Part shown: one piece after another, positions 21,786 through 54,215 of the stretch
Position numbering within the stretch: position 1 is the stretch's first letter
Layout: each line of letters starts with the position of its first letter
Origin: a virus
Reading direction: 5' to 3' (one strand)
IMG/VR virus record: IMGVR_UViG_3300042402_004196
Coordinates: 1 to 56,638 of that record
DNA length: 56,638 bases
The notes under the pieces: generated by a model
The model's database searches: none
Seen by the model: the letters and a program-made list of their open reading frames with translations, nothing else
What the model was told of the DNA's origin: nothing
Program-made: the position numbers and the translations under genes

Positions 21786-22153
21786 CCAAGTTTTAAACCA
21801 TCACTAGATGTTATATACCAATTTCCTTCTACGAATTGGAATTGAACACAGGCTCCTTTTTCTAAAAGGAGCTCATCCCAATCTTCATCTATCTTACCAA
21901 CATCAGATTTAACAACAACAGTTGTTAGAGATTTAACAACAACTCTACTACTTTTTTGTGAATTTAAAGTTACTTCACACTCATCAACATCTTTTATAAT
22001 TAATATTGTTTCTTCATCGGTTAGATAATTTGGTGTTGACACAACTCTTGATAAATCTTTAATTGTTTCAATAACAACTTTTGGTTCAACCACAGTTTGT
22101 GTCTGATACCTAACCACGTTTTTTCTTTCTGTTGTGTTAATTCTATTAATCAT
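21782..22153 (-). CDS. hypothetical protein downstream of gp13-like gene
   Basis: The 123-residue protein is rich in Val, Thr and acidic residues, with a V-V-V-K-S repeat pattern in the middle and a C-terminal beta-type segment (V-Q-F-Q-F-V-E-G-N-W-Y-I-T-S-S-D-G). It has no signal peptide or membrane helix. The ATGA overlap at 22150-22153 couples it to the gp13-like neck gene, so a structural or head-completion role is plausible. Its stop overlaps that of DNA polymerase by four bases on the opposite strand. I do not recognise the family. Confidence 0.6.
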   Translation of the reverse strand: MINRINTTERKNVVRYQTQTVVEPKVVIETIKDLSRVVSTPNYLTDEETILIIKDVDECEVTLNSQKSSRVVVKSLTTVVVKSDVGKIDEDWDELLLEKGACVQFQFVEGNWYITSSDGLKLG

Positions 22154-23274
22154 ATTACATATATTTGTCTTGGCATTGCTCGGAACTTTAAACCTTTATT
22201 TAAATTTTCAGCAATAAGAGCTTCCCTCTCCATAACTTTTTCTGGTTTCAATCTAGTAAGTCTTCCTTCAGCACCAATAAGTTCTTCAATTAGTTTTGCT
22301 TTTTCATCTTTTCCTTCTGTCGCTAAAGATTGCCATTCCATAGTAAGATCACCATCTGGTGTCTTTAAATTACCACTAAATTTACCACGAACTTTAGAAA
22401 GCACTTCTTTACAATATGCGATAAACCATCTTCTAACCCAAACTTGTGCAGGATTGTTTAAATCTTGCCAACTTATTTTATCAAAAGGAACATCAGAAGG
22501 TAATTTAATAATATCTGGATTATCTTTTAAACATTTATCTCTATCTTCCGGACCAACATCATAATACCAATACCAAACTCTTCCTTTTGTTAAAGCGGTA
22601 TTACCAAAATCAAATTTACCACCTGGTGTATTCATTAAGTGAATTGCTTTTTTTCCGTCTGGTAATGCTGTAATTCTGTATGTTAAATCACCTAGAATAA
22701 TTCTTTTTTGTATGTTTATTTCTTGCATTCTCAATAAACTATCAAAAGCTGGTGTTAAAAAATAACTACCGGCCATGTTACCCATTTGTGCGTATCCACC
22801 GACACCACCAAGACCTCCACCACCAATACCACCAAACGACCAAGGATCAAATAAAAGATTATTCATTGTTGGTGGTGTAAACCACAACAATTCATTTATT
22901 TCTCTGTTTGCTGGAATTTCATAGATCTGTTGTCCTTTTTGTAATTGAATATAATCTTTCTTTAGAACGTAATCACCACCAGCCTGTAAACCGACAATTT
23001 TTGAATACGCATAAGTATATCTTGTTTCATAATCCAAACTCCTAGTTGTAAAAGCTTTAGACAAAGATTGTGTATCTAAATTCAAATTATATAGGTTAGT
23101 CCATTGAGACTCAATTAACCAATCCTGAACATATTGAGAATATTCATCAATAGAAAACTCTAAAAGAGTGTCCATTTGTTCATCTTCTAATTCAACACTC
23201 CTTAATGGTGCACCAAGTAAATGTCTAATTTTTCTGTAAAGGTTGGATCTTTCCGGTTCATTAATAATTGACAT
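22150..23274 (-). CDS. 13: T4 gp13-like neck protein
   Basis: The 374-residue protein has the N-terminal pattern of gp13-type neck proteins: L-Y-R-K-I-R-H-L-L-G-A-P, then V-E-L-x-D-E-Q and an acidic helix ending in E-Y-S-Q-Y-V. A glycine-rich stretch (G-G-I-G-G-G-G-L-G-G, about 147-156) lies in the middle, as in gp13. The C-terminus has the W-V-R-R-W-F-I-A-Y-C-K-E-V-L helix and a final E-E-L/E-R-E-A-L region. gp13 joins the portal to the tail. It is somewhat longer than T4 gp13 (309). It is on the minus strand, away from the other neck and tail genes. Assignment is from remembered family pattern, not a search. Confidence 0.68.
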   Translation of the reverse strand: MSIINEPERSNLYRKIRHLLGAPLRSVELEDEQMDTLLEFSIDEYSQYVQDWLIESQWTNLYNLNLDTQSLSKAFTTRSLDYETRYTYAYSKIVGLQAGGDYVLKKDYIQLQKGQQIYEIPANREINELLWFTPPTMNNLLFDPWSFGGIGGGGLGGVGGYAQMGNMAGSYFLTPAFDSLLRMQEINIQKRIILGDLTYRITALPDGKKAIHLMNTPGGKFDFGNTALTKGRVWYWYYDVGPEDRDKCLKDNPDIIKLPSDVPFDKISWQDLNNPAQVWVRRWFIAYCKEVLSKVRGKFSGNLKTPDGDLTMEWQSLATEGKDEKAKLIEELIGAEGRLTRLKPEKVMEREALIAENLNKGLKFRAMPRQIYVI

Positions 23275-23305: not shown

Positions 23306-25405
23306 TTATTTTACACCTACTATTCTACTAAGGTCTATTTTGAATCTTTCGTTTTTTGATAGTAGTCTTATAATATCTTGTGGGATATTATCACCTAATC
23401 TATTAACACCATACTTCCCACCAAATGAATTCATTAGATCAACTATTTTTATTGTTTCTGGAGTACTACTTAAAAAAGTAACATAGTCATCTTGTGATAG
23501 AACTGGAAATTGTATGCCACCAGTCATAGTTGGTTTGTAATTTAAAATTTTTGATGAAAATGTTATTGTTTGTGACCCTTTAGTTTTTGGTGCTGTTAAC
23601 AATTCAGGTATTTTTGCAAGTTGTATCAACTTGTTTTTGTCAAAATAATATAAGTTAATTTTATTTTCACTACCAGATGGTATACCAATTAACATTCCTG
23701 TAACCTCTTCTAATAACTTAGTTAGAATATCCTCAGCGCAGTTTCTAATATCTTGATTCTTGTGTTTAAGAATAAGTTCTAAAAAATTTGGAAATTGTGA
23801 TAAATTAATTAATTCTTCTTTATTTTCAGGACTGCCATTATAGTTCATAATATAACTATTAACAGATTTTTTAATACTTTTTAAATTTATTTTTTCACCC
23901 GTATTTCTAATAATTTTACAAGATATTTTATCCCCATCAACAGTAAAGACATCATAAGGTGAATTTAAATTTGTTGCTAGTTGACCACCTAATAAACCAG
24001 AAATTAACGCTTCAAAATCAAAACCTCTAGTCCTACTTTTAACAAATCTTTGAAAATAGTTTTCAAATCTAAATTTTGATCTTTCTGAAACATTAGTTAA
24101 ATTTAAAGTCATAAGTCCCTCAATTTTTCTATTGAAGATTAAAGAACCTCTTTCTATTTCAGCTGTAATAATATTGTTAATAGCAGATTCTGCAGCCTCT
24201 GCATCTAGAGGAATTAACCTAATTTTTTGTAACTCACGATTCATTAATTTTTTAATGTCTTGACCTGTTTCTTCATTTTCTAAAAGAACTCTAATGTAAG
24301 ATTCTTTAACAATTTTTTTATTTTTTAAAAGATATAACTCATTTACAAATTCCCAATTTATATGGTTCCAAAAATTTTTAACATATTCATCTCTTTTATT
24401 TCTATATCTTAAATAATAAGCGTGTTCCCAAACATCAAGACCTAATAATGGATAACCACCATCTTTAATAATATTCATAAGTGGGTTGTCCTGGTTTGGT
24501 GTAGACATTATTTTTAAATTACCTTTTTTTGTTAAAACCAACCAAGCCCACCCAGAACCAAACCTATCAAGAGCAACTTGATTAAATTCGTCCTTAAGAT
24601 TTTTTATATTTCCGTATTGTTTTTTTATTTTTTCATAAACTTCACCGGAAGGTCTTTGTTTTTTTGGGGACAACATTTTCCAAAATAATGCGTGGTTAAA
24701 TGCACCACCTGCATTATTTCTTACCTTTTCGTCAAACTTACTTATTGATTTAATAATATCTTCTAATTCTAGGTCTTTGTAATTTTTCTTTGATAAAGCA
24801 TCGTTTAATTTTTTTACATAACCCTTGTAATGTTTGTTATAGTGAATATCCATTGTTTCTGGATCAACAAACTGTTTCATTGCTGAATATGAGTAAGGTA
24901 GTTTTTCAATACCAATTTTTTTCATCTCAAGAAGAAAATTGTTTTTAATTTCTTCTTTTTCTGTTAATAAAATTTGTTCATTTAATAACTGAACATTTTT
25001 TATTAATTTTGTTGTTGATTCAAAAACTAAACCATTATAATTTGGGTACTCATTTTCAAACATTTTAATTAATCTACCAGCAAAAGCATTTGCCTCATCT
25101 TCGTTTTGACCTCCAATGTCCGGACCTCTTTCTCTACCCAAAACTAATCTCTGATGTGCGTGAACCCACTCATGGGCAAGAGTTCTCATTATATCCCTAT
25201 TTAGTCTATTTCTAGATAAAACTCTTATTTCGCCATTCATGTTTTGTGATCCTGTTGACATTACACCACTTTTTTTACCAAGAAATAAAATAGTTAAAGG
25301 ATTCCCAACTGGGTATTTAGAATTTATAAATTTAATAAAATCATTATACATTTTCTTGTCTTCCGACGAAAGACCAGAATCAATATGTTTTACAGTAACT
25401 TTCAT
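23306..25405 (-). CDS. metalloprotease-like / Mn superoxide dismutase / nuclease-like fusion
   Basis: The 699-residue protein has three parts. Residues 1-130 look like a zincin: H-E-W-V-H (H78, E79, H82) and a downstream E-D-E-A-N-A-F-A-G (E104), as in ImmA/IrrE-type peptidases. Residues about 165-358 are a complete Fe/Mn superoxide dismutase with all four metal ligands (H188, H238, D324, H328), H192/Y196 and G-S-G-W-A-W-L. A-G-G before N-H and N-Q-D at 304-306 indicate the Mn type. A helix K-K-I-V-K-E-S-Y-I-R-V-L-L-E-N (363-377) leads to a C-terminal part (about 385-699) with E465, D485 and S-C-K497, suggestive of a PD-(D/E)XK nuclease but unproven. No signal peptide is seen. A late-type motif precedes it, so it may be a virion protein (inference). 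Confidence 0.82.
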   Translation of the reverse strand: MKVTVKHIDSGLSSEDKKMYNDFIKFINSKYPVGNPLTILFLGKKSGVMSTGSQNMNGEIRVLSRNRLNRDIMRTLAHEWVHAHQRLVLGRERGPDIGGQNEDEANAFAGRLIKMFENEYPNYNGLVFESTTKLIKNVQLLNEQILLTEKEEIKNNFLLEMKKIGIEKLPYSYSAMKQFVDPETMDIHYNKHYKGYVKKLNDALSKKNYKDLELEDIIKSISKFDEKVRNNAGGAFNHALFWKMLSPKKQRPSGEVYEKIKKQYGNIKNLKDEFNQVALDRFGSGWAWLVLTKKGNLKIMSTPNQDNPLMNIIKDGGYPLLGLDVWEHAYYLRYRNKRDEYVKNFWNHINWEFVNELYLLKNKKIVKESYIRVLLENEETGQDIKKLMNRELQKIRLIPLDAEAAESAINNIITAEIERGSLIFNRKIEGLMTLNLTNVSERSKFRFENYFQRFVKSRTRGFDFEALISGLLGGQLATNLNSPYDVFTVDGDKISCKIIRNTGEKINLKSIKKSVNSYIMNYNGSPENKEELINLSQFPNFLELILKHKNQDIRNCAEDILTKLLEEVTGMLIGIPSGSENKINLYYFDKNKLIQLAKIPELLTAPKTKGSQTITFSSKILNYKPTMTGGIQFPVLSQDDYVTFLSSTPETIKIVDLMNSFGGKYGVNRLGDNIPQDIIRLLSKNERFKIDLSRIVGVK

Positions 25406-25409
25406 TATA

Positions 25410-25417
25410 GATAAATA
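25410..25417 (-). promoter_or_regulatory. TATTTATC motif before SOD fusion gene (minus strand)
   Basis: Read on the minus strand, the 5' T at 25417 is 12 bases before the ATG at 25405, closer than the usual 20-21. Confidence 0.35.
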
Positions 25418-25436: not shown

Positions 25437-27197
25437 TTAAGGTCTTTTATTGATTAACTTTAAGATTTCCTCAACAACATCACCAGAGTCTTGTACCTCA
25501 TCACCCATTACGGTTCCAATAATTTTTTTCTTTTTATTTAGGATATCATAAATAACACCCTCAATTGTGTTTTCAAAAATTGGGTAATAAACAAGTACAT
25601 TGTTTTTTTGTCCATAACGGTAAGCCCTGTCTTCAGCTTGAGCATGTTCTGCCGGAACAAATGATAAGTCATTCATAATTACAACTTCTGCTGCCGTTAA
25701 AGTAAGTCCAACACCAGCGGCTTTTAAATTCCCAACAAATACTTTAACTTTTTCATTTTCCTGAAATTGATCAACAGCATATTGTCTCTGAACTTTATTA
25801 CAACTACCATCAAGATATACTGATTCTTTTCCAAAATGATTATGTATTAGTTGTAAAGTGTCAGTAAAGTTTGTGAAAATAATAACCTTTTTTCCTTGAT
25901 CAATAATGTTTTGAACAAACTCAATAGTTTCTTTTACTTTTTCATTTGCAATTACTTTTCTTACTTTCATAATTTTTGAAAACTGGATTGTAAGAGATGA
26001 AGATTCTTCTTTTTTATTTTCCAGCCAATCATAATATTCACCCATCAAATCTTTATATTCTTTTGATGAGGTTCTTAAGTAAACTGGCGTTATAATTTTT
26101 TCTGGTAAATCTAAAACTTGTTCTTTTAATCTTCTTAAAATTTGTTTTGATGTTCTATCTCTTAACTCCTCAAGGTTAGAAGCTCCAGTAACATTCCATA
26201 TTTTTCTATTACCGGCTCTGAACTGAAATCCTTGACAATAACGAATAGCATAAGCCATCCAATTTTGGGCAACCGGACTTTCAATTATTGATAATAGATT
26301 ATAATAGTTCATTGGTCTGGATGTCATTGGTGTTCCAGTTAATAACCAAACTCTTTTTATATCTTTCACAAAATTGTTAATAATTTTTGTTCTTTGAGCT
26401 TGAGTATTTGATACCATATGAGCTTCATCTAAAATAACCAACTCAAAATTTGATTGAGTCAATAATGAATTTTCCTTATCTTTTGGGTCGTGAAAGTTTT
26501 TTAATATATCGTAATTTACAATAACAAAATCAGATTCAGTTGAAAATTTTTTACCTTCTGCAATATAGCAAGATCTATCTGAATAATTTGCAATTTCTCT
26601 TTCCCAATTTATTTTAAGTGATGCCGGACAAATAATTAAAATCTTTTTTGCTCCCGTTTCTAAAGCGGCAATAATTGTTGAGGTAGTCTTACCTAATCCC
26701 ATATCGTCAGCCAAAATAAATCTTCTAGAACCAACAAGTTTTTCAATTGCTTCTTTTTGATGTGATAATGGTGGTCTATGATCGTATTTGGAATAATCAA
26801 TATTAACATCATCTACCGTTTGTGATTTAATTAAAGATGATTTAGGAACCCAAAACTCCGACAAATTATCCTTTTCAAAAAATTTACCCCACACATGATA
26901 CGATTTATCTTTCTCAACAAGTAACTTTTCAATATATATTTTTTCCGGTGTTTCAAGTAGATACCGTTCTTCTGCAAACTTTTTTGCGAAGTAATTATCT
27001 AACTCAACCCATTTACGAGCAACCTTTGGTTTTGTGTCAAAATATGTTGTTATGTATTCAGCTTGTGATCTTGTTGGGTAAAACTTCTTATTAGTTTCCT
27101 TTTTAGTTTTCATATAAATAATGTAATTGTTAGCCCCACTATATGAGTCTAACAAATCCATTGCTTTTAGTTCTATTATTTGTTTTGTGATTTCCAA
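25437..27197 (-). CDS. SNF2-family DNA helicase/translocase
   Basis: The 586-residue protein is an SF2 helicase of the SNF2 type. Walker A is D-D-M-G-L-G-K-T (164-171), motif Ia I-C-P-A-S-L, and Walker B L-D-E-A-H (256-260). Motif III is L-T-G-T-P-M, then I-I-F-T-N-F, A-A-G-V-G-L-T-L-T-A-A and R-A-Y-R-Y-G-Q. It is compact like SMARCAL1-type fork-remodelling enzymes and may fill the role that UvsW has in T4 (inference). The frame begins at a TTG (27197); the first ATG is at 27161. I keep the TTG because the extra residues form a plausible helix. It is the first gene of the minus block. Confidence 0.88.
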   Translation of the reverse strand: MEITKQIIELKAMDLLDSYSGANNYIIYMKTKKETNKKFYPTRSQAEYITTYFDTKPKVARKWVELDNYFAKKFAEERYLLETPEKIYIEKLLVEKDKSYHVWGKFFEKDNLSEFWVPKSSLIKSQTVDDVNIDYSKYDHRPPLSHQKEAIEKLVGSRRFILADDMGLGKTTSTIIAALETGAKKILIICPASLKINWEREIANYSDRSCYIAEGKKFSTESDFVIVNYDILKNFHDPKDKENSLLTQSNFELVILDEAHMVSNTQAQRTKIINNFVKDIKRVWLLTGTPMTSRPMNYYNLLSIIESPVAQNWMAYAIRYCQGFQFRAGNRKIWNVTGASNLEELRDRTSKQILRRLKEQVLDLPEKIITPVYLRTSSKEYKDLMGEYYDWLENKKEESSSLTIQFSKIMKVRKVIANEKVKETIEFVQNIIDQGKKVIIFTNFTDTLQLIHNHFGKESVYLDGSCNKVQRQYAVDQFQENEKVKVFVGNLKAAGVGLTLTAAEVVIMNDLSFVPAEHAQAEDRAYRYGQKNNVLVYYPIFENTIEGVIYDILNKKKKIIGTVMGDEVQDSGDVVEEILKLINKRP

Positions 27198-29096: not shown

Positions 29097-32000
29097 ATGG
29101 CAACTAACAGTAAAGTATTTGTATCACCTGGTGTCTATACTTCTGAAGTGGATTTAAGTTTTGTAGCACAAAGTGTTGGTGTTACAACTCTAGGTATTGC
29201 GGGGGAAACTATAAAAGGCCCAGCATTTGAACCTATCTTCGTAAGAAATTACGACGAGTATCAAACCTACTTTGGCGGAACATCTCCTGAAAAATTTATC
29301 AATACACAAATCCCTAAGTATGAAGCTTCATATATAGCAAAAGCTTATTTACAACAATCAAATCAATTATTTGTAACAAGAATCCTTGGATTATCTGGTT
29401 ATGACGCTGGACCATCTTGGTCAATTGTTACAAAAGCAAATGTGGATCCAACAACTGTTGATTTCGTTTGTTTCAGTGCGGTAACAGATCCAACTAATGT
29501 GTGTGACACAATTTGTGTTATCCCAAGTGCTATCACTTATACCGTAACATTTACTGGATGTACAAGCGGTACTGACACAATTACATTTGAAACAAGTTTT
29601 TCAAGTGAGATTGAAAGTATCCTTGATGAACAGTATGAAAGTTTTGACGGAACAGTTGATACCCTTGATAATGATATTAAGAGTTTAATTAGTGATGTAA
29701 TCACAAGTGTTGATCCTTTTACTACAAAAGATAGTACAATTAGTTATTTTGGGTCAATTTGGGGAGAAGATTATGATACATTATCAACAGTATTTTCTGC
29801 TGAAACAAATGTATTTGATGTGCCTTCTGTTTCAAGTGATTTAACAGACTATACATCACCTTTCAACGATGCTTGGTATTACTCATTATTTGATAATATT
29901 GGTGGTGGTTCATATTCAGGATTCTCATTCTTTACATATGTTGAGGATTTAGAAATGATTGTGCCTGTTACAACAACATCTACAACATTGACACCAACCC
30001 CAACACCATCAGCATCTCCGATAAATCCTTGTATTACACCGACACCATTTGTTTCTCCAACACCAACACCAACTCCGGTTAATGTTGATTGTTTTTCTGG
30101 AACAGTTAGAGTTAAAGTGTATTACTACAGTGGAACACCATTTACTGATTATGATGATTTAGTTGTTGGGACATTAAGATCAAGAGGTATCGCAACTTAT
30201 TCAGATGGAAATAACCCTGTTTATGAAGTATCTAACATTTCAAATGTTAATTTAAATATGACTGGACAATATGTTGGTGTTCTTAAAAACCCATATTTAC
30301 CATTTGCTATTAATGTAACAAATGATTCTGGAACAAACTTTATATTTGAGACTTCATTTGCACAATCTGATTCACAATATGTTGCGAAAGTATTTGGTGG
30401 AACTAACTTTGGTAAACCAAGACAATCTACACCATTATTCTTAGAGGAAAGATTCCAAGCTCTTTTAAATTACGGTTGGAGAAAAGGTTTCATTAGAGGT
30501 TTAAGTTCTGACTTAATTAGTTTAGATTCAGCACAAAGTGAAAGTCCACAATCTATTGGGTGGTATTTAGATAAATACCAATCTCCAAGTTCACCATGGG
30601 TTGTTTCAGAATTAAGAGGAACAAAAACATTTAACCTTTTCAAATTCTATACAATATCTGATGGTAATAATGCAAACTCTGAAGTAAAAATTTCATTTAT
30701 TAATTTGTCTTTTGCTAATAGAACATTTGATATATTAGTTAGAGATTATTTTGATGTTGATTCTAATCCAGTTGTTCTTGAGAAATTTACAAACTGTTCT
30801 ATGGATCCTTCACAAAACAACTTTGTTGCTAAAAAGATCGGAACATTAGATGGTGAATATGAGTTAAACTCAAAATACATAATGGTTGAGATAAATGAGG
30901 ATGCACCAGTTGATTCAATTCCTTGTGGTTTTGAGGGTTATACTTTCAGAGAATACGCTGGAGCTAGATCACCATTCCCAGTTTATAAAACTAAATATGA
31001 TTTCCCAGGTGAAGTGATTTATAACCCACCATTTGGTTTATCATCAGGTGGTGATGATGCGATCAGATCTTCTGGCGACAATATCAGAAGAACTTATCTT
31101 GGATTCTCAAACAATATCGGATTTGATACAAGTTTCTTTGAATATAAAGGAAAAAGAAATCCAATTACAACTTGTGATTTAGAAGGTGGTGAGTGGGCTT
31201 ACAGAACAAGAGGATTCCATATGGACCAATTTGCTAGTGGTATTACAATTTCTAGTGGGTTTGCAACAAGTGGAACACCAAAATATTATGTAGGTGCAGC
31301 TTCTTTCTCTTCTGAACCAACAAATATTAATAGTCCATATTATAGACTATTCTCAAGAAAATTCACAATGCTTGTTAATGGTGGATTTGACGGATGGGAT
31401 ATATATAGAGAATATAGAACAAATGGTGACAGATATGTATTAGGTCGTCAAGGATTCTTAAATGGTGCTTGTGTTTCTGATAGATACCCAGATGCTAAAG
31501 GTTGGGGTGCATTCAAACAAATCACAATTGGTGATGGAAATGTTGATTACGCAAACACTGACTATTACGCATACTTACTTGGTATTAGAACATTTGCAAA
31601 CCCAGAAGCTGTTAACATCAATGTATTTGTATCTCCAGGAATTGATTATGTAAACAATGGTGATTTAGTTGAGGCAACAATTGACATGATTGAAAACGAA
31701 AGAGCTGACTCATTGTATATTACAACAACTCCTGACTACAATATGTTTGTTGCATCAACAACTGAAGGTGATAATTTAATTTATCCTCAAGAAGCGGTTG
31801 ATAGTTTAGAGGAAAGAGGAATCGATTCTAACTACACGGCAACATATTATCCATGGGTATTAACAAGAGATAGTGTAAATAATACACAAATCTATATCCC
31901 TGCAACAGCTGAGGTTACAAGAAACTTGGCACTTACTGATAATATTGCGTTCCCTTGGTTTGCGGCAGCAGGTTATACTCGTGGTATTGTAAACTCAATT

Positions 32001-32447
32001 AAAGCACGTAAGAAGTTAACACAAGAAGACAGAGACGTACTTTATGTTGGTAGACTTAACCCAATTGCTACGTTTGCCGATGTAGGTACTGTAATCTGGG
32101 GTAACAAAACTCTACAAGTAAGAGAATCTGCTCTTGATAGAATCAATGTAAGAAGATTATTACTACAAGCTCGTAAATTAATTTCTGCTGTATCTGTAAG
32201 ATTATTATTTGATCAAAACGATGAACAAGTAAGACAAGATTTCTTAAACGCAGTTAATCCAATTTTAGATGCAATCAGAAGAGATAGAGGTTTATATGAC
32301 TTTAGAGTTACAGTTTCAAGTGACACTGAAGATTTAGATAGAAACCAATTGACAGGTAAGATTTATATCAAACCAACAAGGTCTCTTGAATTTATTGACA
32401 TTACATTCTATATTACTCCAACCGGAGCTTCGTTTGAAGATGTATGA
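29097..32447 (+). CDS. 18: gp18-like tail sheath protein, enlarged
   Basis: The 1116-residue sheath is far longer than T4 gp18 (659). The N-terminus is typical (V-F-V-S-P-G-V-Y-T-S-E-V-D, 7-19) and so is the conserved C-terminal domain (about 900-1116) with I-N-V-R-R-L-L-L, N-P-I-L-D-A-I-R-R-D-R-G-L-Y-D-F and F-I-D-I-T-F-Y-I. The added material is in the outer part. It includes a Pro-Thr linker of the P-T-P-T-P type at about 296-325 with a Cys at each side, like the stalks of the two adhesins near 6.3-10.5 kb. The sheath surrounds the tube and contracts; the insertion probably projects outwards. It is followed by a strong terminator. Confidence 0.93.
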   Translation: MATNSKVFVSPGVYTSEVDLSFVAQSVGVTTLGIAGETIKGPAFEPIFVRNYDEYQTYFGGTSPEKFINTQIPKYEASYIAKAYLQQSNQLFVTRILGLSGYDAGPSWSIVTKANVDPTTVDFVCFSAVTDPTNVCDTICVIPSAITYTVTFTGCTSGTDTITFETSFSSEIESILDEQYESFDGTVDTLDNDIKSLISDVITSVDPFTTKDSTISYFGSIWGEDYDTLSTVFSAETNVFDVPSVSSDLTDYTSPFNDAWYYSLFDNIGGGSYSGFSFFTYVEDLEMIVPVTTTSTTLTPTPTPSASPINPCITPTPFVSPTPTPTPVNVDCFSGTVRVKVYYYSGTPFTDYDDLVVGTLRSRGIATYSDGNNPVYEVSNISNVNLNMTGQYVGVLKNPYLPFAINVTNDSGTNFIFETSFAQSDSQYVAKVFGGTNFGKPRQSTPLFLEERFQALLNYGWRKGFIRGLSSDLISLDSAQSESPQSIGWYLDKYQSPSSPWVVSELRGTKTFNLFKFYTISDGNNANSEVKISFINLSFANRTFDILVRDYFDVDSNPVVLEKFTNCSMDPSQNNFVAKKIGTLDGEYELNSKYIMVEINEDAPVDSIPCGFEGYTFREYAGARSPFPVYKTKYDFPGEVIYNPPFGLSSGGDDAIRSSGDNIRRTYLGFSNNIGFDTSFFEYKGKRNPITTCDLEGGEWAYRTRGFHMDQFASGITISSGFATSGTPKYYVGAASFSSEPTNINSPYYRLFSRKFTMLVNGGFDGWDIYREYRTNGDRYVLGRQGFLNGACVSDRYPDAKGWGAFKQITIGDGNVDYANTDYYAYLLGIRTFANPEAVNINVFVSPGIDYVNNGDLVEATIDMIENERADSLYITTTPDYNMFVASTTEGDNLIYPQEAVDSLEERGIDSNYTATYYPWVLTRDSVNNTQIYIPATAEVTRNLALTDNIAFPWFAAAGYTRGIVNSIKARKKLTQEDRDVLYVGRLNPIATFADVGTVIWGNKTLQVRESALDRINVRRLLLQARKLISAVSVRLLFDQNDEQVRQDFLNAVNPILDAIRRDRGLYDFRVTVSSDTEDLDRNQLTGKIYIKPTRSLEFIDITFYITPTGASFEDV

Positions 32448-33967: not shown

Positions 33968-34008
33968 TTTTTTACTAAAAGATACCTATCCAAAACAAAC
34001 TTTGTTAT

Positions 34009-34043
34009 ATTCCCATATATTTATATGTATGGGAATTTTTATT
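34009..34043 (+). terminator. hairpin that ends the tube gene and covers the endonuclease start
   Basis: A 12-bp stem (34009-34020 with 34025-34036, one G-T pair) has a 4-base loop and then T-rich sequence. The 3' arm contains the likely ATG (34029-34031) of the next gene. It may both stop tube transcription and limit endonuclease translation. Confidence 0.7.
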
Positions 34044-34946
34044 TGTAATATATGTGATAATGAATTTAATACGATAAATAGTATTAGAGCACACTCAATT
34101 CAAAAACATAATATATCGGCTGAAGATGTTTATATTAAACATGTATTAAATAATATAATACCTAAATGTGAATGTGGTTGTGGTAAAAAACCACCATTTA
34201 TAACAGTAACAAAAGGATTTTCAAGATTTATACAATCACACCATAATAGAGTTAAAGGTAATAATAATTTTCATAAAAACCCAGACACTCATAAGAAAGC
34301 GATTGAGACACAAAAGAAAAATTGGAAAGAAGGAAAATATAAAGGGTGGTGGGAAAACAAAACACCAGAAACTATTGTAAAAATTGAAAATATTAAAATT
34401 AAAATTAAAAACAATAAAGAAAGATCTAAAAAAATTTCTGAAAAATTAAAAGGTGTTCCAAAAACAGAAGAAAGTAAAAGAAAACTATCTGAAACTCAGA
34501 AAAAAAGATATATTGATAATCCAAAATTAAGGGTTAACCAATCTAAAATAAAATTAGAATGGATGAGGAAAAATTCAAAAGTCAAAACATCAAAACTTGA
34601 AATAATATTTACAAATATTTTAGAAAACATTGGTTTAAAAAAAGATATTGATTTTATACATAATCATTTAATAACAGAAATTAAAACATTTTTTGATTTT
34701 TATATTCCACAAAAACAAATAATAATTGAAGTTGATGGTGATTTTTATCATTGTAATCCAGAAACAAAATACAAGATACCAAAATATGAAATACAAAAAA
34801 AGAATAAAATAAATGATAAACGTAAAAATACTTGGTGTCAAAACCACAACATAACTATTTTAAGATATTGGGAAAAAGATATTAATGAAAGACCAGAGTG
34901 GGTTATTTCAGATTTGAAATCAAAATTAAGTTTACAAAAAAAATAA
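34029..34946 (+). CDS. Vsr-like homing endonuclease with zinc finger
   Basis: The 305-residue protein has an N-terminal C2H2 zinc finger (C6, C9, H22, H27) and a Cys/His-rich stretch near 46-80. Two NUMOD3-like DNA-binding segments follow (K-K-I-S-E-K-L-K-G and R-K-L-S-E-T-Q-K-K-R). The C-terminal nuclease domain is like Vsr/EDxHD enzymes: E-I-I-F near 190, F-D-F-Y-I, I-I-E-V-D-G-D-F-Y-H and N-D-K-R-K-N then I-L-R-Y-W. This is the make-up of free-standing phage homing endonucleases. The strong Lys/Asn bias is unlike its structural neighbours. It separates the tube gene from the chaperone gene. The ATG at 34029 is preferred to an in-frame ATG at 34002. Confidence 0.8.
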   Translation: MGIFICNICDNEFNTINSIRAHSIQKHNISAEDVYIKHVLNNIIPKCECGCGKKPPFITVTKGFSRFIQSHHNRVKGNNNFHKNPDTHKKAIETQKKNWKEGKYKGWWENKTPETIVKIENIKIKIKNNKERSKKISEKLKGVPKTEESKRKLSETQKKRYIDNPKLRVNQSKIKLEWMRKNSKVKTSKLEIIFTNILENIGLKKDIDFIHNHLITEIKTFFDFYIPQKQIIIEVDGDFYHCNPETKYKIPKYEIQKKNKINDKRKNTWCQNHNITILRYWEKDINERPEWVISDLKSKLSLQKK

Positions 34947-52195: not shown

Positions 52196-53206
52196 ATGGC
52201 AATTAAAAAAAACGACTTTAGCTCAATAAAGAAAAAATTCTCTTCTGACGCAAAATACAAACCACAAAGATACTTTGATTTAGGACCCGCATTTTTAGAT
52301 GCTGTAGGACTTCCAGGTCCTGCTATGGGACACATTAATATGTTTTTGGGTCACTCTGATACTGGTAAGACAACAGCACTTGTAAAAACAGCGGTTGACG
52401 CACAGAAAAAAGAAATACTACCAGTTTTTATTATCACAGAACAAAAATGGTCTTTTGAGCACTCAAAACTTATGGGTTTTGAATGTGAAGAAGTTGTTGA
52501 TGAGGAAACAGGTGAATTAACTTGGGATGGGTTCTTCTTATTTAACAATAATTTTAGTTATATTGAACAAATTACGGATTATATTAATGATCTGTTAGAT
52601 GCTCAAGAAAAAGGTGAACTAGATTATTCATTATGTATTATGTGGGATTCTGTTGGTTCCGTTCCTTGTAAAATGACCTATGAAGGTAAAGGTGGTAAAC
52701 AACACAATGCTAGTGTTTTAGCTGATAAGATTGGAATGGGAATTAACCAAAGAATTTCCGGGTCAAGAAAAGCAGATTCAAAATACGAAAATACATTAAT
52801 TATCGTTAATCAACCTTGGGTAGAATTACCAGACAATCCATTTGGTCAACCTAAAATTAAAGCAAAAGGTGGTGAAGCAATTTGGTTAAATTCATCTTTA
52901 GTGTTTTTATACGGAAATCAAAAAGGTGCTGGAACAACAAAGATTACAGCAACAAAAGATAAAAGAACTGTTAAATTCGCATCAAGAACAAAAGTATCGG
53001 TTATGAAAAACCACATTAATGGACTTGGTTTTGAAGATGGTAAAATTATTGTAACACCTCACGGGTTTTTACCTGGAAAGGATCCTACGGAAGAAAAGAA
53101 GTCTATTGAAGACTACAAAAAAGATTATGCAGAATATTGGAAAACAATTATTGGTGTAGATGGTGAATTTGATTTAAAAGAAGAAAAAGTTTATGAACAA
53201 GAATAA
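52196..53206 (+). CDS. uvsX: UvsX recombinase (RecA family)
   Basis: The 336-residue strand-exchange protein has Walker A as G-H-S-D-T-G-K-T-T (52-60), a Walker B-like C-I-M-W-D-S-V-G-S near 155, and N-Q-P-W in place of the RecA N-Q region near 205. It coats single-stranded DNA to drive recombination-dependent replication and repair, cooperating with gp32. Length is slightly below T4 UvsX (391). Its end overlaps the methyltransferase start by 14 bases. Confidence 0.92.
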   Translation: MAIKKNDFSSIKKKFSSDAKYKPQRYFDLGPAFLDAVGLPGPAMGHINMFLGHSDTGKTTALVKTAVDAQKKEILPVFIITEQKWSFEHSKLMGFECEEVVDEETGELTWDGFFLFNNNFSYIEQITDYINDLLDAQEKGELDYSLCIMWDSVGSVPCKMTYEGKGGKQHNASVLADKIGMGINQRISGSRKADSKYENTLIIVNQPWVELPDNPFGQPKIKAKGGEAIWLNSSLVFLYGNQKGAGTTKITATKDKRTVKFASRTKVSVMKNHINGLGFEDGKIIVTPHGFLPGKDPTEEKKSIEDYKKDYAEYWKTIIGVDGEFDLKEEKVYEQE

Positions 53207-54215
53207 ATTAAAAGTAGTATCGTTATTTTCCGGTTACGGAACACAAGAGTTAGCACTTAAATATATTGGTGTTGATTATGAAAATGTTGCAAACTGCGAC
53301 AACTTCAAACAAGCAAATGAATGTTATGACACTTTACACACAACAACACATGGAAACCTTGGAGATATAAGAATGATAAATGAAAATACATTTCCGGAAT
53401 GTGATTTATTAACATATTCATTTCCATGTCAAGACATCTCAATTTCTGGAGTTCAAAAAGGTATTAAAGAAGGTACAAGAAGTGGATTGTTATTTGAAGT
53501 TGAAAGACTTTTGAGTACAAATAGACCAAAATTCCTTTTGATGGAAAATGTTAAAAATTTAGTATCTCACAACCATATTGAAAACTTTAAAAAACATATA
53601 TATTTTTTAAGAGGTCTTGGTTACAGTTCTTTTTGGAGAGTGTTAAATGGTGCTGATTTTGGATGTCCACAAAACAGAGAAAGAGTTTTTATGATGTCAG
53701 TATTAAATAGTAGTATTGAAGAAGTACAAGAAAAAATGATGAATGTTGATAACCATAAAAAAACAAGAATCCCGATGCGATCATTTATTGATGAAAATTT
53801 TAGTGACTCATTAATTGTTGATTGCCAATTTACATCACACACACCAAAAAATCACACAATTTGTAAATTAGTTGGTAGAAGAGATGATGTTAGTTACGAC
53901 CAAGCTAGAAGAATTTATTCTGTTGACGGTTGTTCTCCTTGTTTAACAACAAGTGGATCACCACAAATTCTAACAGAAGATGGTAGGGTTAGAACAATTA
54001 CAGCAAGAGAGGGTTATAGATTTATGGGTGTTAGAGAAGATGATATTAATTTGTTACTTACTACATCATTATCAAATACAGCGCATGTAGCACTAGCAGG
54101 AAACTCAATTTGTGTTCCGGTTATGGAGGCGATTTTCAGTGAATTTTTCTCTGAATATATGTTAGAAAAAGAACCAGTAATGTCAAACCCAATTAACGAA
54201 GAATTTAATGACTAA
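53193..54215 (+). CDS. C5-cytosine DNA methyltransferase
   Basis: The 340-residue protein has an intact motif set. Motif I is L-F-S-G-Y-G-T-Q-E-L (11-20), and the catalytic P-C-Q is at 78-80 (C79). E-N-V is at 118-120, Q-N-R-E-R-V at 160-165, and the closing G-N-S-I-C-V-P-V near 309. It would methylate cytosine in a short site using S-adenosylmethionine. No restriction gene is adjacent, so it is probably an orphan protecting phage DNA. It overlaps both neighbours (14 and 8 bases) inside the replication cluster. The target site cannot be read from sequence. Confidence 0.9.
   Translation: MNKNKLKVVSLFSGYGTQELALKYIGVDYENVANCDNFKQANECYDTLHTTTHGNLGDIRMINENTFPECDLLTYSFPCQDISISGVQKGIKEGTRSGLLFEVERLLSTNRPKFLLMENVKNLVSHNHIENFKKHIYFLRGLGYSSFWRVLNGADFGCPQNRERVFMMSVLNSSIEEVQEKMMNVDNHKKTRIPMRSFIDENFSDSLIVDCQFTSHTPKNHTICKLVGRRDDVSYDQARRIYSVDGCSPCLTTSGSPQILTEDGRVRTITAREGYRFMGVREDDINLLLTTSLSNTAHVALAGNSICVPVMEAIFSEFFSEYMLEKEPVMSNPINEEFND

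Follow-up and report, generated by a model that had tools for sequence, protein, structure and literature searches.

A gene on the minus strand of the 56,638-nt window (the whole stretch of DNA analysed, IMG/VR record IMGVR_UViG_3300042402_004196) encodes a 699-aa protein in which a zincin-like domain, a complete Mn-type superoxide dismutase (SOD) and a C-terminal domain, here called module A, are joined by two linkers. The evidence leaves evenly balanced chances that this protein is a late, modular, head-packaged cargo of T4-like large phages. The position of the gene (23306..25405), its length and its three-part make-up had been read correctly in a preliminary description made from the letters of the window. 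That description named a frame error joining three genes as the finding that would overturn it, and suggested a database search for the same order of domains. The gene is one open ORF with an ATG start, and a scan of IMG/VR yielded 218 stretches related to it. Among the best 80 of these 218, which were retained, many are full-length fusions (among L001-L033), on contigs as long as 257 kb, and the zincin-SOD core was also found on contigs of up to 304 kb. Dozens of independent contigs have the fusion in an open frame, and dN/dS is 0.04-0.14 for the zincin, SOD and module A when the window, L001 and L004 are compared. A frame error or an assembly chimera is thus ruled out by the open frame in many independent contigs and by purifying selection on all three domains. 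Clearly, the 699-aa ORF is a genuine fusion of a zincin, a SOD and a C-terminal domain. In the AlphaFold2 (AF2) model of the whole chain, pLDDT falls below 50 at aa 130-173 and 363-382 only, that is, in the two linkers and a slight flank. The coordinates of the parts of the gene given below all refer to the minus strand.

The N-terminal domain (aa 1-128, 25022..25405) is very probably a zincin, as its HEXXH motif had suggested in the preliminary description. The motif reads HEWVH (aa 78-82, 25160..25174) and is followed by EDEAN (aa 102-106, 25088..25102), which is invariant in the alignment and in which E102 or E104 is the candidate third zinc ligand; both motifs are kept in 69 of the 70 zincin-bearing ORFs. 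HEXXH with a downstream Glu ligand is the arrangement of zincins of the M78/IrrE-ImmA type. The domain was modelled with a pLDDT of mostly 85-93, and its fold in BFVD most resembles phage proteins named IrrE N-terminal-like (E 1e-4 and 2.3e-4), the PDB match list being filled by SODs. By sequence, the domain matched no Pfam family above cut-off and gave no PDB profile match: the best match to the Peptidase_M78 profile, found for one of the 16 members, had an E of 0.13 and was below cut-off, and the profiles of DUF6055, M91, M76 and SprT stayed below cut-off as well. A pattern scan of bacterial genomes revealed no zincin relatives.

That the middle domain (aa 166-362, 24320..24910) is a SOD is virtually certain from its sequence. 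Both Pfam halves of the family score well above cut-off over aa 167-356 (Sod_Fe_C 1.8e-39, Sod_Fe_N 7.7e-22), and Sphingobacterium sp. T2 MnSOD is the closest relative in the PDB, at E 2.9e-62 and with 47% identity across the SOD part. The four metal ligands that had been picked out earlier, H188 (24842..24844), H238 within AGGAFNH (24692..24694), D324 (24434..24436) and H328 (24422..24424), show little or no variation among 60 distinct homologues, and the same holds for the second-shell residues H192, Y196, W286, W288, Q305, W326, E327 and Y331. The Mn-type signatures AGGxxNH and NQD are also present, so the SOD is complete, as had been claimed. In contrast, the suggestion that it may serve as a SOD-fold scaffold lost ground, because the full SOD active site, needless for a scaffold, is kept; a decayed SOD with such a role is disfavoured on the same grounds. 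The phage domain shares the fold and all metal ligands of bacterial MnSOD (SodA; Sphingobacterium sp. T2, PDB 6gsc/5a9g), from which it differs in being fused to other domains. When a tree was built with 78 SODs from cellular organisms, mainly Bacteroidota, the phage SODs formed a single separate clade (100/100). The nearest cellular SODs, again mostly from Bacteroidota, are at most 56% identical to the phage copies. A Bacteroidota-like origin of the phage SOD is suggested, and the carriers are large T4-like lake phages that probably infect Bacteroidota. Cultured phages also have SODs, as exemplified by PA5oct and Vibrio phage 2.275.O; among cultured phages, no match spanned most of the fusion, the search with module A was empty, and that with the zincin returned one weak match.

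Module A (aa 386-699, 23306..24250) had no meaningful match by sequence. The AF2 model of aa 379-699 (pLDDT 88.6, pTM 0.83) placed it nearest to restriction endonucleases: the first eight Foldseek matches in the PDB are Eco15I/NhoI, with weak E values of 0.014-0.08, a probability of 0.92-1.00 and a TM-score by target of at most 0.54, and PvuII appears lower. Among solved folds, these enzymes are the closest to module A, and a restriction-endonuclease-like fold is likely on the strength of the model. The putative nuclease core, which had been noticed as an E/D/K pattern, consists of E465, P483-x-D485 and S495-x-K497 (23915..24013), all invariant, including in relatives with 44-47% identity. The usual active site of this fold reads PD...(D/E)xK, and module A reads PxD...SxK with an invariant Ser. 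Its D-x9-[E/S]-x-K spacing is the same as in PvuII (D58, E68 and K70), and the Ser stands in place of the PvuII Glu. As this Ser replaces the usual D/E of (D/E)-x-K, an active nuclease is rather doubtful. Thus, of the nuclease-like C-terminal domain proposed earlier, the fold held up moderately well, and the activity did not fare as well. Matches to a TnsA/gp4-like gene (PF08722) elsewhere in these phages were all below cut-off.

Among the zincin-bearing forms, the zincin-SOD core (~362 aa) is constant, and the module that follows it is exchangeable. In 32 of 81 loci the core has nothing after it; in the others it precedes module A (~335 aa), B (~344 aa), C1 or C2 (103-144 aa), or C1 and C2 together. 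Modules B, C1 and C2 have no convincing match in Pfam, PHROGs or PADLOC. An ORF of 872-878 aa (L122-L127, L135) is devoid of the zincin and has the order SOD-B-A, and module A also occurs on its own, in ORFs of 342-344 aa (L121, L128, L129, L134). The tree of the core requires at least 10 changes of the C-terminal state. In the related genome G002, a SOD-C2 fusion has five other C2-type genes arrayed around it. Most of the paralogues in this array (238754-242671, L201-L202) carry MKIII[ST]ESQYK leaders. The top fold match to the fusion in BFVD (E 1.7e-25, 31% identity) is A0A6J5L953, which comes from an uncultured Caudovirales phage and is named 'superoxide dismutase'. As the alignment takes 554 columns on this 501-aa target, the latter probably comprises a SOD and a module A-like part; it is too short for all three domains, and we found nothing written on its architecture in the literature.

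Both linkers of the fusion are rich in the tripeptide (L/I)xE. Linker 1 (aa 129-165, 24911..25021) contains LNEQ, LTEK and LLEM, and linker 2 (aa 363-385, 24251..24319) contains the leader-like KIVKESYIRVLLENEE. Across 30 distinct full-length proteins, 7.9% of the positions in linker 1 and 6.3% of those in linker 2 begin an (L/I)xE, versus 0.6-0.8% in the three domains, and [LI]xE is present in all 50 distinct zincin-SOD linkers, even though the surrounding sequence varies. The extended form [LI]xE[SNT] was found at 14 of 15 module joints, the exception being that of L033, against 3% of the 15-aa windows that make up the background of the proteomes; the 15 joints were picked by hand and some are related, so they are not 15 independent tests. 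Many proteins of these phages start with a basic-hydrophobic leader that ends in xE (MKELIRHIIKEE, MKKVIRLTESDLTRIVKRVINE). A leader pattern occurs in the first 40 aa of 47/204, 37/161, 35/203 and 16/132 proteins, compared with 5-18 in later windows; two stricter patterns (R2, R3) were too rare for use. When 265,367 internal windows were ranked by a leader profile, the linker of the G003 fusion came tenth, that of L122 about 28th, and linker 2 of the window, a moderate match, about 64th. These similarities suggest that the linkers are leader-like, that is, derived from the N-terminal leaders of the phages or mimicking them, and the shared leaders are themselves a candidate capsid-targeting signal in this phage group. 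In G001 (L151-L166), G002, G003 and G005, the leaders (MKELIRHIIKEE, MNLQESIRRILREE, MKKVIRLTESDLTRIVKRVINE) are almost the same in tens of proteins, most of them small. In addition, three proteins have a second, internal copy of the leader (G003 87190, L181; G001 53511, L153; G002 97421, L194), as might result from the fusion of two genes that each had a leader, and the Met is kept in two of these proteins; in the G003 protein the copy reads MNLQESIRRILKEE.

The fusion gene lies directly downstream of a gene for a SNF2-type helicase (25437..27197, minus strand; Pfam SNF2-rel_dom 4.8e-30), and is followed by a neck-type gene of the head-tail adaptor Ad2 family (gp14-like; 22150..23274, minus strand). 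The latter confirms the neck protein neighbour of the preliminary description (phrog_211, 2.8e-10). The order helicase, fusion, neck-type gene and a gene for a ~120-aa protein, all on one strand, is that of the window and of four relatives (G001, G002, G003 and G005), with C2-type genes intervening within it in G002. The sequence TATTTAT (25411..25417, minus strand) begins 12 nt ahead of the ATG of the fusion, and is in the same place in nearly all the loci listed. It precedes 12 of the 42 genes of the window, on the coding strand, and in four relatives it was found upstream of 22-30% of genes versus 2-3% of random 60-mers, an 8-13 fold enrichment, consistent with a promoter-like element. As the sheath, tube and neck genes have it too, starting 20-48 nt before them, the late-type motif and late, structural-gene setting proposed earlier are supported. 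The motif of the SOD gene is very near the ATG, and its transcripts may therefore be leaderless. Elsewhere in the window, sheath families match about the last 300 aa alone of a 1116-aa sheath protein (29097-32447), the remainder being a large extra part. By eye, a gene between tail genes (34002-34946), with a zinc-finger-like start, possibly encodes a homing endonuclease, and the product of 53193-54215, which starts with LFSGYGTQELAL, resembles a C5-cytosine DNA methyltransferase.

A precedent for proteins carried in the head is provided by T4, the internal proteins of which enter the head by means of N-terminal propeptides, and many of which are ejected into the host (PMC9026906). The propeptides of the T4 IP proteins and Alt are short and are cut by gp21, and targeting of IPIII needs only its first 10 residues (PMC9026906). 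Of 10 related records, 7 contain both Gp23 and a prohead protease of the T4 gp21 type (Peptidase_S77). The N-terminal part of the capsid protein reads ...ASFLINEATSEGS (...SFLINE/ATSEGS), and a cut after the Glu, INE/A, where T4 practice would place it, is plausible. Short leaders that end in an (L/I)xE-type site are common to T4 IPI-IPIII and Alt and to these phages, along with gp21 (S77) and gp23 homologues. In contrast to the T4 proteins, the leader-like elements of the fusion are internal and link several folded enzymes. The chain opens directly with the zincin, a short N-terminal targeting propeptide being absent, so the fusion falls outside a strict definition of T4-type internal proteins. 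The (L/I)xE sites are present at the ends of what would be its mature parts; it is their cutting, together with packaging, ejection, the catalytic activities and the targets, that we infer.

If the leaders, from which the linkers derive or which they mimic, are capsid-targeting peptides that end in (L/I)xE sites for the gp21-type prohead protease, as is likely, the fusion precursor would enter the prohead core and be cut at the linkers into separate enzymes, which would be ejected together with the DNA. The SOD would then clear superoxide early in the infection of the new host, and the zincin and the C-terminal module would act upon host proteins or nucleic acid. That the protein may enter the host, as the preliminary description had it, gains indirect support from the linkers, leader-like and rich in (L/I)xE, and from the T4-type prohead protease of relatives. 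For packaging in the head, we see the arguments as equally weighted on either side, and cutting by the prohead protease at the linkers falls somewhat short of that. The full scheme, in which copies of a capsid-targeting leader join enzymes into a cargo polyprotein that is cut as the head matures and whose parts are injected together, the last module being freely exchanged between phages, is put forward tentatively. What speaks for a packed cargo is the complete SOD active site, purifying selection, and a constant core with swapped modules; the conserved gene order and the TATTTAT that also precedes the sheath, tube and neck genes; the presence of Peptidase_S77 and Gp23 in relatives, together with the frequency of the leader motif at N-termini; the concentration of (L/I)xE in the linkers, to which the predicted disorder is confined; and the SOD-C2 fusion amid leader-bearing C2 genes, as well as the precedent of T4 IP and Alt. 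What speaks against it is that T4 targeting sequences are N-terminal and the zincin has no such leader of its own, that linker 2 of the window matches the leader profile only moderately and the joint of L033 deviates, and that gp21 and gp23 are known from relatives, the window being a fragment.

The protein could instead act uncut and unpackaged in the infected cell, as an auxiliary multidomain enzyme that shields the host and the replicating phage from superoxide. Such a role would suit the complete active site of the SOD and the SOD genes of the cultured large phages mentioned above, and, in one survey, more than 10% of freshwater phages had ROS-defence genes, SODs included, and phage-mediated ROS defence was already proposed (PMC6802176). 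We nevertheless regard it as rather unlikely, as it leaves unexplained the leader-like module swapping, the linkers rich in (L/I)xE and the fixed site beside the neck gene. Those linkers could also be scars: if leader-bearing genes often fuse, they would be functionless remnants of leaders, and the SOD would be an ordinary enzyme to which passengers have become attached. The occurrence of internal leader copies in other proteins, in some with the internal Met retained, the G002 array and the variation of the linker motifs fit this explanation, which is made improbable by the retention of (L/I)xE in 50/50 zincin-SOD linkers despite varying surroundings and by its density in the linkers of the 30 full-length proteins, about 10 times that in the domains.

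The proximity of the neck gene, which the fusion adjoins in all genomes examined, raises the question of a neck or head-completion factor, in which module A would serve as a nuclease for packaging or for DNA ends, with the zincin and SOD aiding assembly or forming a dimer scaffold at the neck. Large phages do have a virion-associated nuclease of the TnsA/gp4 type with a restriction-endonuclease fold, and zincin-like peptidases have been suggested to act in maturation (PMC7824862). Yet many relatives lack module A or have another module in its place, the 878-aa form is missing the zincin, and the SOD retains an active site that a scaffold would not need, so that we consider such a factor very improbable.

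The occurrence of SODs in freshwater phages is already known, and their role in ROS defence already proposed (PMC6802176). Kavagutti et al. (2019) reported SOD among phage genes in lakes, and the passages on it that we found describe no fusion, module swapping or packaging. The bS21-encoding Bacteroidetes phages of Chen et al. (2022) are likewise from freshwater and reach 331 kb; the main text does not mention SOD (PMC9723584). In those phages, the bS21 gene lies on the reverse strand between the portal and prohead protease genes (PMC9723584), and the same is likely for G001, where a small basic protein, bS21-like by eye, is encoded on the opposite strand between the portal and protease genes (135003-135188, L157). 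In the open-access literature, supplements aside, we found no description of the fusion, its swapped modules or its leader-like linkers.

If the packed-cargo reading is true, these phages would deliver a ready-made SOD, and not just its gene, along with a protease and a module that acts on DNA or RNA, and the delivery would coincide with the moment at which host defence acts. The proposed 'phage-mediated ROS defence' would then become a mechanism of delivery open to testing, and a sequence rule drawn from the leader-like linkers would predict which proteins are injected by a large group of uncultured lake phages.
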